Of a stretch of 64,000 nt of DNA, positions 43,098 through 46,213 are shown piece by piece. The notes beneath the pieces are model-generated. The model made no database searches and was not told where the DNA came from. It saw only the letters and a list, made by a program, of their open reading frames with translations. The stretch is taken from NCBI RefSeq assembly GCF_015206995.1, contig NZ_JADEXR010000014.1:1-64000 (forward strand), read 5' to 3'. Source of the stretch: an aff. Roholtiella sp. LEGE 12411 (GTDB taxonomy: Bacteria; Cyanobacteriota; Cyanobacteriia; Cyanobacteriales; Nostocaceae). Within the stretch, counting starts at the first letter, position 1, and the number at the start of each line of letters is the position of its first letter. The position numbers were made by a program, and so were the translations under genes.

Positions 43098-44264
43098 TTA
43101 GCGTTGAGCTAAAGACAAACCTGGTGTCAGCCTCTGCAAAACTTGCTTTAACACCATTGCTGTCCAATCAACATCAGCTTCAGTGGTGTCACGCCCTAAT
43201 GTCAGGCGAATTCCGCCCAAAGCTGCTTTTTGTGAATAGCCCATTGCCAACAATATCGGGCTAGGGCTAAGTTTGCCACTGTGACAAGCAGCACCAGCAC
43301 TGATACCAATGCCAGCAAGATTGAGCTGTCGTACCAAGGTTTTACCACTGATTTCGCCATCGGCGTTTTCTATATAGAGGCTGACATGGTGGGGTAAGCG
43401 GTGAGCGCGATCGCCTGTAGGTATTAAACCAGGAATTTCGGCTAACAGGGCAAAGGCCCGATCGCGTAACTTAATTAAGCGTGGTGTTTCAATTGGTAGT
43501 TCTTGTGCTGCTAGTTGAGCTGCTACTCCAAAACCAGCGATCGCAGGTACTGCTTGAGTACCAGAACGTAGCCCCATTTCTTGCCCACCGCCACCCACCA
43601 GGGGTATCAATTCTATACCAGGACGCACATATAACGCCCCAGCACCTTGGGGGCCATATATTTTATGACTGGAAAGGCTAAGTAAGTCTACTGGGAGTTG
43701 TTGTACATCTATGGGTAAGCGTCCCGCAGCTTGTACTGCGTCTGTGTGGAACAAAACACCATGCGATCGGGCAATTTGTCCCAGTTCCTCAATTGGTTGT
43801 ACTGTTCCTACTTCACTTTGAGCGTAAATTACCGAAACTAAAACTGTGTTATGTCGCAACGCCGCCTTTAAATCTAAAGGGTTGACTCTACCTTTAGCAT
43901 CCACACATAAGCGCGTTATTTCCCAACCCCACATTTCTAACAACCGCACGGGTTCGGAAATTGCTGAATGTTCAACGCTGGAAATAATTATATGTTGAGG
44001 AACAGCGTATAACCGAGCAACACCTATAATCACCAGATTATTTGCTTCAGTCCCGCCAGAGGTAAAGATGATAGATTCAGAACTGGCGGCGTTAATTAAT
44101 CCAGCTACTTGGACTCTTGCTTGTTCCACAACTGTTGCAGCCCTTTGTCCCCACTCATGTAAGCTGGAAGGATTACCCCACTGTTGAGTGAGGATTACTT
44201 GCATAGCTGCGATCGCTTCTGGGCGAGTGGGAGTAGTGGCGCTGTAATCTAGATAAATTTGCAT
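43098..44264 (-). CDS. Cysteine desulfurase (NifS/IscS family)
   Basis: The 388-residue PLP enzyme starts MQIYLDYSATTPTRPEA, as in all NifS/IscS proteins. It contains FTSGGTEANNL, HTDAVQAAG, the PLP lysine in SLSSHKIYGPQGAGALYV and the catalytic cysteine in SAGAACHSGKLSP. It releases sulfur from cysteine for Fe-S clusters, thiolated tRNA or cofactors. The frame stays open upstream to 44417 only because a dispersed repeat (44274-44403) happens to lack stops; ATG 44264 is the real start. Which of the cyanobacterial desulfurases this is cannot be told from the sequence alone. Confidence 0.92.
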   Translation of the reverse strand: MQIYLDYSATTPTRPEAIAAMQVILTQQWGNPSSLHEWGQRAATVVEQARVQVAGLINAASSESIIFTSGGTEANNLVIIGVARLYAVPQHIIISSVEHSAISEPVRLLEMWGWEITRLCVDAKGRVNPLDLKAALRHNTVLVSVIYAQSEVGTVQPIEELGQIARSHGVLFHTDAVQAAGRLPIDVQQLPVDLLSLSSHKIYGPQGAGALYVRPGIELIPLVGGGGQEMGLRSGTQAVPAIAGFGVAAQLAAQELPIETPRLIKLRDRAFALLAEIPGLIPTGDRAHRLPHHVSLYIENADGEISGKTLVRQLNLAGIGISAGAACHSGKLSPSPILLAMGYSQKAALGGIRLTLGRDTTEADVDWTAMVLKQVLQRLTPGLSLAQR

Positions 44265-44273
44265 ATCAACTAA

Positions 44274-44403
44274 TATAGTAATCCGATTTGATTCGTGAAC
44301 TGACTTGTAGAGACACCGAATGGGGGATAGGGGATAGGGAATGGGAAAGAAGGGAGTTAAAGGTGTACGCAGTTTTTTCAAAAATAAAATAGGAATCCTA
44401 TAG
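44274..44403 (+). repeat. Dispersed repeat family, full-length copy abutting the cysteine desulfurase gene
   Basis: Begins TATAGTAATCCGATTTG, has a GGGGGATAGGGGATAGGG core and ends AAATAGGAATCCTATA. The ends form an imperfect inverted repeat. It begins 9 bp upstream of the desulfurase ATG, so the gene's promoter is within, beyond or disrupted by it. Close match to 18464-18590. Confidence 0.78.
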
Positions 44404-44581
44404 TAGTGGGAACACACGCTGGCAATTGGATGCTGAGCTTGTCAACATGTACATTTAAATGGGCAAATCTGACAAAATTTAGATACTTCAGCGTGTATGA
44501 ACGATTATTTCTCTAATTCAGAACACAAAATTTTGGGAATGATAAATGTGTTCACCCCTAACCCACTTTTAGCAGATTACA

Positions 44582-46213
44582 GTGCAATTTTTCTCTAAAC
44601 AAAGGTATTTTTTTTATATCTTTTTACTGATATTTCCTCTTGCTGCTTGTCAACGAGTTCATTCCTACAATCAGCGTCCAGCACCTTTACCGCAAGATCC
44701 ATTAGTTCAAGTTTACTTTAATCATTCTGAGTCTTCAGAATACAAAGAACCTTATCGTCAGCAAACCCGCCTTGGAGATAATTTAGAAAAACAGATTGTC
44801 GATGCTATTTCTCAAGCTAAATCAACAGTAGATGTGGCGGTTCAAGAATTACGTTTACCCGGAGTTGCCAAAGCATTAGTTGATAGACAAAAATCTGGGG
44901 TAAAGGTCAGAATAATTTTAGAAAATATCTATAGCCGACCTGGGAGTAGTTTAACATCTAATGAAATAAGTAAATTAGATAAAAGGGAACGGGAGCGCTA
45001 TAAGGAATTTCGCCAATTTATAGACGTTAATCAAGATAATCAACTCACTCCAGATGAAATAAATCAACGAGATGCTTTAGTGATTTTACAAAACGCTAAA
45101 ATTCCTTGGCTTGATGATCAAGCTGATGGTTCAGCGGGAAGCAGTTTAATGCATCACAAATTTGTGATTGTGGATAATCGCATTGTAATTATCACTTCGG
45201 CAAATTTTACTTTAAGTGATACTTTTGGCGATTTTACCAATTTTAGCAGTTTAGGCAATGCCAATAATTTATTGCAGATTGATAGCCCAGAATTAGCATC
45301 TTTATTTACAGAAGAGTTTAACATTATGTGGGGGGACGGCCCAGGAGGCAAGCTAGATAGTCGATTTGGTTTGCAAAAGGTGATGCGTTTGCCTAAAATA
45401 ATCACTTTCGGAAAAACCCAAATTACTGTACAATTCTCGCCTACTTCTCCTACTCAACCTTGGAGTAACAGCAGCAATGGTTTAATTGGCAAAACTTTAG
45501 CTTCAGCAACTAAATCTATTGATATGGCGTTATTTGTATTTTCTGAACAGCGCCTTGCTAATATCCTAGAAAATCGTCATCAACAAAGTGTGCAAATTCG
45601 CGCCTTAATTGAGCCACAATTTGCCTATCGTCCTTACAGTGAAGCCTTAGATATGATGGGGGTTGCGCTCAGTAACAAATGTAAATATAAAATCGATAAC
45701 CATCCCTGGAAAAATCCAATTACTACTGTAGGTGTGCCTTTATTAGCCAAAGGTGATCTATTACATCATAAATTTGGTATTATTGATAGTCAAACAGTAA
45801 TTACAGGTTCTCATAATTGGTCAGACGCTGCAAATAGTGGCAATGACGAGACGCTTATAGTGGTTGAAAATCCCACAGTTGCTGCCCATTATGTGCGTGA
45901 GTTTGATCGTCTTTATGCCAAAGCAAAACCAGGAATACCAACAGTAATTCAAGAAAAAATTAAACTAGAACAAAAACATTGTCCCCAAATTCAAACTCCT
46001 TTATCAAGTGAAATTACAGCTAGTCAACAAGTAAATATTAACACTGCAAGTTTAGAAGATTTAACAACTCTACCTGGTGTGGGTAAAAAGTTAGCACAAC
46101 GAATACTTGCTACTCGTCAACAGCAAAAATTTACCTCTTTACAAGACTTGGAAAAGGTTCCAGGTATTAGTAATAGGATGCTGGATAAATGGCGCGATCG
46201 CATAACTTATTAA
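44582..46213 (+). CDS. Phospholipase D-like lipoprotein with EF-hand and helix-hairpin-helix
   Basis: The 543-residue protein (GTG start) has a lipoprotein signal ending LAAC (about residue 23), so it is probably membrane-anchored outside the cytoplasm. Two HKD motifs mark a phospholipase D/nuclease fold: HHKFVIVD (H191, K193, D198) and HHKFGIID (H395, K397, D402). Between the start and the first motif, residues 148-159 (DVNQDNQLTPDE) fit a canonical EF-hand calcium loop. The C-terminus (about 482-543) is a ComEA-like helix-hairpin-helix, VNINTASLEDLTTLPGVGKK, which binds DNA. An extracytoplasmic, calcium-responsive nuclease is more likely than a lipase; substrate unproven. Confidence 0.85.
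   Translation: MQFFSKQRYFFYIFLLIFPLAACQRVHSYNQRPAPLPQDPLVQVYFNHSESSEYKEPYRQQTRLGDNLEKQIVDAISQAKSTVDVAVQELRLPGVAKALVDRQKSGVKVRIILENIYSRPGSSLTSNEISKLDKRERERYKEFRQFIDVNQDNQLTPDEINQRDALVILQNAKIPWLDDQADGSAGSSLMHHKFVIVDNRIVIITSANFTLSDTFGDFTNFSSLGNANNLLQIDSPELASLFTEEFNIMWGDGPGGKLDSRFGLQKVMRLPKIITFGKTQITVQFSPTSPTQPWSNSSNGLIGKTLASATKSIDMALFVFSEQRLANILENRHQQSVQIRALIEPQFAYRPYSEALDMMGVALSNKCKYKIDNHPWKNPITTVGVPLLAKGDLLHHKFGIIDSQTVITGSHNWSDAANSGNDETLIVVENPTVAAHYVREFDRLYAKAKPGIPTVIQEKIKLEQKHCPQIQTPLSSEITASQQVNINTASLEDLTTLPGVGKKLAQRILATRQQQKFTSLQDLEKVPGISNRMLDKWRDRITY

Follow-up and report, generated by a model that had tools for sequence, protein, structure and literature searches.

A ComA/'ComEA'-family protein with two phospholipase D-like domains, an EF-hand-like loop and a helix-hairpin-helix tail in a nostocacean cyanobacterium

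To our knowledge, the enzyme that converts incoming double-stranded DNA to a single strand in Gram-negative transformation is not settled. The classical competence protein ComEA of Bacillus and Thermus ends in a helix-hairpin-helix (HhH) and, as far as we know, has no phospholipase D (PLD) part. NucT of Helicobacter pylori, a membrane-associated nuclease of the PLD family, has been implicated in both transformation and purine salvage. In the cyanobacterium Synechocystis PCC 6803, the gene slr0197, whose ORF spans 844 bp or more, was named comEA in PMC10667661, and its knock-out abolishes DNA uptake and transformation according to that study. The same gene is treated in a review (PMC7690421), and in Anabaena PCC 7120 the ComA ortholog is All3087 according to PMC3976300. 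A requirement for transformation is known, from papers, for slr0197 only.

Here, a stretch of 64,000 nucleotides from aff. Roholtiella sp. LEGE 12411 (the window) was analysed. The ORF at 44582..46213 on the forward strand, which starts with GTG and encodes 543 aa, is a member of this known family as judged by the ORF, its homologues and gene order. The original prediction had treated its layout as unusual; the layout is in fact standard for cyanobacteria and, together with the likely role, is already in print in outline. Less familiar are an EF-hand-like loop, an HhH that has been lost repeatedly and a distribution closely matching that of ComEC.

Domain layout and family identity

The N-terminus is basic, continues with a hydrophobic stretch and reaches the lipobox L-A-A-C23, giving a predicted lipoprotein signal peptide at 44582..44650. 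Pfam detected PLDc_2 (PF13091) twice, with a whole-protein E of 7.4e-44, as a first PLD-like domain at residues 72-250 (44795..45331) and a second at residues 304-444 (45491..45913), and placed the PLDc active-site motif at residues 190-210. The C-terminal ComEA-type HhH (HHH_3, PF12836; E 5.6e-18) occupies residues 481-542 (46022..46207), so both Pfam families named in the original prediction were found. HKD motif 1 (residues 191-208; 45152..45205) reads H191-x-K193...D198...S206-x-N208, and HKD motif 2 (residues 395-412; 45764..45817) reads H395-x-K397...D402...GS-x-N412. Both halves carry the HxK(x)4D...SxN signature of PLD-superfamily nucleases, and their catalytic letters are without variation across the 27-row alignment A1. 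Two ORFs shorter than 400 aa were left out. Cys367 and Cys467 are also kept in 27/27 aligned sequences, and would suit an exported protein with a disulphide. Two PLD domains, a C-terminal HhH and an N-terminal membrane anchor make up the ComA/'ComEA' layout; the lipobox, the two HKD half-sites, the EF loop ahead of HKD1 and the terminal HhH were all confirmed by the ORF, Pfam and conservation.

Family identity was traced through gene order. In two genomes presumed to be Synechocystis-like (L181 and L182), the family member, of 555 and 553 aa, respectively, is encoded on the strand of rpiA as the third gene past it; an RNA-binding-protein gene precedes rpiA, and sigma-factor and CCG-domain genes lie downstream (neighbours named by eye). 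PMC4959675 gives the PCC 6803 names slr0194 for rpiA and sll0184 for sigC; with the presumed numbering of the genes between, the third gene after rpiA corresponds to slr0197. Orthology to slr0197 is thus given by gene order in L181 and L182. An ORF as long as that of slr0197 is too long for the HhH proteins of 182-185 aa in Synechocystis-like genomes, so slr0197 is not one of these. Pfam detected two PLD domains and HHH_3 in L181 and also in L132.

Sequence profile comparison ranked Zucchini/MitoPLD first (6.9e-19), followed by NucT (2.5e-11) and Nuc (1.1e-10), with the lipid PLD 7e0m last (7e-4), suggesting that in its PLD part the protein is closer to the nucleases than to the lipid branch, and that it is a putative nuclease. 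Curated NCBIfam models stayed under their cut-offs: the NucT model PRK13912 gave at best 79 bits against 297, the ComEA models TIGR01259 and TIGR00426 reached 54.6 and 47.8 bits where 152.35 and 53.1 are required, and the cardiolipin synthase models scored far lower than required.

Around the gene, a cysteine-desulfurase-like gene lies divergently upstream at 43098-44417 on the reverse strand of the window, and was matched in 61 of the 63 Nostocales loci that cover 13.3 kb or more around the family gene, and in 12/28 loci of other relatives. The remaining neighbours tested were conserved in few loci or none. A promoter and terminator scan gave 16 promoter-like sites against 7.7 expected and no terminator, and a phage search gave three weak records.

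Conservation of the EF loop and loss of the HhH tail

A homologue was found in 59 of the 60 relatives searched whole-genome, 58 of them by strong matches, and the possibility of a chimera or one-genome oddity was rejected on this ground. The nearest relatives, in Komarekiella and Nostoc, are 88% identical to the window protein. Fifty-eight loci were read, the weak match in G053 lying outside them, and 56 were aligned; L140 and L142, with less than 350 aa in the frame taken, were omitted, and L140 was re-read later. The copy in G018 (L142) is decayed, with many internal stops in the match. The tree comprised 54 rows, after removal of the fragments L138 and L144.

The EF loop (residues 148-159; 45023-45058), DVNQDNQLTPDE, belongs to an EF-hand-like helix-loop-helix (residues 134-163; 44981..45070) that is inserted inside the first PLD domain and not ahead of it. 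The EF-hand expected by the original prediction stayed below the Pfam cut-off (EF-hand_5, E = 0.18, 11.8 bits against 25.9), but the loop follows the PROSITE PS00018 pattern, has helices on both sides and is conserved. Given a Pfam score of only 11.8 bits, conservation is the stronger evidence for the loop. A chance EF-like match was ruled out, as 0.0016 PS00018 matches are expected per shuffled version of the protein. In the AlphaFold2 model (mean pLDDT 78.7, pTM 0.76), the predicted block consists of a helix at 134-147, the loop and a helix at 157-163, with pLDDT of 79-93. The conservation set consisted of whole-genome search hits chosen without regard to the loop; the related-loci set was set aside for this purpose, since one of its probes, QFIDVNQD, was the loop itself. 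Among the 50 loop-bearing homologues in the 56 aligned rows, D1, N/D3 and E12 are present in 50/50 and D5 in 49/50, and 43/50 fit the whole PS00018 pattern.

The loop is absent from six of the 56 rows (L141, L143 and L145-L148), which form one fully supported clade. L140, from another family, is without the whole insert including its helices, and shares 54% identity with the window protein over residues 157-468. Both HKD motifs are intact in L140 and in the loop-less clade. Within the first PLD domain, the EF loop is a real and conserved insert that can nonetheless be dispensed with, and it is a feature of the cyanobacterial family and not peculiar to the window genome. In the literature searched, which fell short of most subscription papers, no mention of an EF loop in the competence protein ComEA was found, and a search for ComEA with phospholipase D in cyanobacteria gave nothing related judging by title.

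The HhH is far less stable. It is in frame in 34 of the 56 rows and missing from 22, which include L020, truncated at the end of its contig, and the fragments L138 and L144. On the core tree, from which the EF columns were excluded, EF presence requires at least one change and HhH presence, counted after removal of L020, at least 10; because the tree was built by a quick method and many of its forks are weak, 10 is a rough figure. Decay of the HhH is visible in L006/L055, L063, L066, L067 and L107, where coding sequence is readable past the stop or frame change, and no HhH remnant was found behind L070, L074, L078, L079, L082, L087 and L100. L006 is in G002, of the same genus as the window, where the HhH end is broken. 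Replacement of the lost HhH by a stand-alone ComEA was rejected as a general rule, because no HHH_3 protein was found in five genomes of family f36 that bear an HhH-less member. Other HhH-less genomes retain short HhH proteins.

The window's own genome contains further HHH_3 proteins. L114:808-1854 (C27) encodes a 348-aa putative lipoprotein with HHH_3 near its N-terminus (4.6e-7), a putative second exported ComEA-like protein, and frames of similar length occur in G021 and G042. L113:1492-2043 (C270) encodes a protein of 183 aa that has HHH_3 in two stretches and lacks an evident signal peptide; outside f36, most of the other genomes searched have HHH_3 frames of similar length. L115:775-3027 (C149) encodes a membrane protein of 750 aa that has pentapeptide-like repeats and, midway along, a weak HHH_3.

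Cys23 is kept in 47 of the 54 tree rows, and the lipobox Cys requires at least four changes on the core tree. The lipobox supports predicted export and lipid anchoring, not the choice of membrane. Because published descriptions place the Synechocystis protein in the plasma membrane, with domains reaching into the periplasm, a periplasmic location is at least as likely as the surface location originally proposed.

Co-occurrence with ComEC and the probable role

Among 386 genomes of the phylum, 348 family matches and 350 ComEC (PF03772) matches were found at E up to 0.001. In the 180 genomes comprising the window's own and those of the same family, order or class, 151 harbor both, 23 neither, two the family alone (G005 and G317) and four ComEC alone (G017, G200, G303 and G364), the family being scored as present at E <1e-60, by which seven weak class-level matches count as absent. 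Fisher's test gave p 7.6e-23, a value that relatedness makes unreadable as a probability. The joint absences are not independent, falling into at least three groups: mostly small genomes of the reduced-genome family f36, plus f27/g72 and f8/g77. Those of f8/g77 are three genomes of 2.8-3.1 Mb, and a 4.8-Mb relative (G186) keeps both genes. Outside the class, ComEC is present in 195 of the 200 other listed genomes (the two groups together cover 380 of the 386), and family matches there are only weak (best 1.4e-34); ComEC therefore does not require the family protein everywhere. Together with the gene-order identity to slr0197 and the knock-out phenotype of that gene, this near-matching distribution supports the earlier suggestion of DNA processing in DNA uptake.

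We consider it likely that the window protein is the Nostocales form of ComA/'ComEA', a lipid-tethered PLD-type nuclease feeding ComEC, in which the EF loop is structural. The protein would be exported and lipid-tethered at Cys23 in the envelope, its two HKD halves would fold into a single pseudo-dimeric PLD-type nuclease site, and its C-terminal HhH would grip incoming double-stranded DNA. The nuclease would then cut or degrade one strand, and the other would pass via ComEC. The predicted EF loop probably holds one calcium ion, stiffening the insert beside the first half-site. The domain anatomy, conservation, gene-order identity and ComEC co-occurrence used here come from this analysis and the slr0197 mutant phenotype from the literature; that the protein acts as a nuclease, which strand it would remove, that it binds calcium and in which membrane it sits we infer. 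Against this account, the 22 homologues noted above lack the HhH, which is the supposed DNA receptor. The literature searched gave no record of transformation in the genus of the window, and filamentous cyanobacteria are generally regarded as poorly competent.

A lipid-anchored scavenging nuclease of the NucT kind, degrading external DNA for phosphate, nitrogen or nucleosides with no role in gene transfer, is unlikely. The best NCBIfam matches are NucT models, although under their cut-offs, NucT serves purine salvage besides transformation, many nucleases are released by heterocystous cyanobacteria according to the literature, and the loss of the HhH in many lineages would be compatible with a simple nuclease. 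Yet the presence of the family tracks that of ComEC closely, which makes the nutrient scavenging of the original prediction less likely. A NucA-like secreted nuclease (PF01223) is patchy by contrast (38/180), occurring with ComEC in 37 genomes and alone in one, with 118 having ComEC alone and 24 neither. The slr0197 mutant is not transformable, as described in PMC10667661.

HKD catalysis is not known to require a metal, which bears on the calcium-dependent surface enzyme proposed originally, active only with its EF loop filled by external calcium. The ligand positions of the loop are nearly invariant wherever it exists, and the loop adjoins HKD1. However, it is missing from L140, the six-member clade and a Vibrio homologue (L179), and in PMC5714352 NucT, its assay containing 1 mM EDTA, is described as cation-independent. 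Because two loop-less groups keep the HKD core and NucT works in EDTA, calcium dependence appears doubtful, and such a switch is quite unlikely. As HKD enzymes are not known to need a metal and NucT was assayed in EDTA, a predicted calcium at the loop is more likely structural than catalytic.

The fold search of the model (VIA-align), spanning residues 34-470 with the HhH outside, listed the bacterial phospholipase D 7e0m (Z 30.9, 3.5 A, 330 residues), PLD3/PLD4 (Z 29-30, ~325 residues) and phosphatidylserine synthases; as 7e0m and PLD3 tie at Z ~30, it cannot tell a nuclease from a lipase. These neighbours would suit an envelope lipid-modifying phospholipase D or cardiolipin-type enzyme with an incidental HhH, a very improbable reading given the profile ranking with nucleases first, the low cardiolipin synthase scores and the DNA-binding nature of the HhH module.

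Beyond the preferred account of a nuclease feeding ComEC, it is possible, if tentative, that the conserved core of the cyanobacterial 'ComEA' is no DNA receptor but, like pneumococcal EndA, the envelope nuclease that supplies ComEC with a single strand, with the HhH tail optional, dropped as a receptor by many lineages and by some without replacement, and with the EF loop tuning it by calcium. In cyanobacteria, one exported chain joins a core resembling nucleases to a tail that binds DNA, and its gene is already known to be needed for transformation. The nuclease half is conserved, and the tail and calcium loop have been removed several times in nature, making their separate roles directly testable.

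Comparison with known systems

Classical ComEA resembles the window protein in its C-terminal HhH, which matched the comE model at 9.8e-15, under the NCBIfam cut-offs, and the PDB ComEA chains 8dfk, 8dss and 2duy by sequence. NucT is likewise a membrane-associated PLD-family nuclease; unlike the fused pseudo-dimer of the window protein, it has a single HKD and acts as a dimer, and neither EF loop nor HhH was noticed in it. Human PLD3 and PLD4 have two HKD halves per exported chain and are nucleases by their PDB titles, but share only 15-17% identity, and no EF loop or HhH was noted among those listed.

Eight Vibrio plasmid records top the match list. The Vibrio coralliilyticus plasmid protein WP_043011803.1 (L179:3929-5380) is 35-36% identical to the window protein (35% over residues 42-494) and has a weak HHH_3 (2.3e-5, under the cut-off); in contrast to the window protein, it is without the EF insert and lipobox and has an ordinary signal peptide by eye. 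As judged from this plasmid-borne homologue, the PLD plus HhH layout reaches past cyanobacteria.

Among the cyanobacterial proteins, All3087 comes from the same order as the window's host and is linked to the family by its published naming as the ComA ortholog. Synechocystis ComA/'ComEA' (Slr0197) is by gene order the same gene; the members in Synechocystis-like genomes differ in having a transmembrane-like anchor in place of the lipobox Cys.
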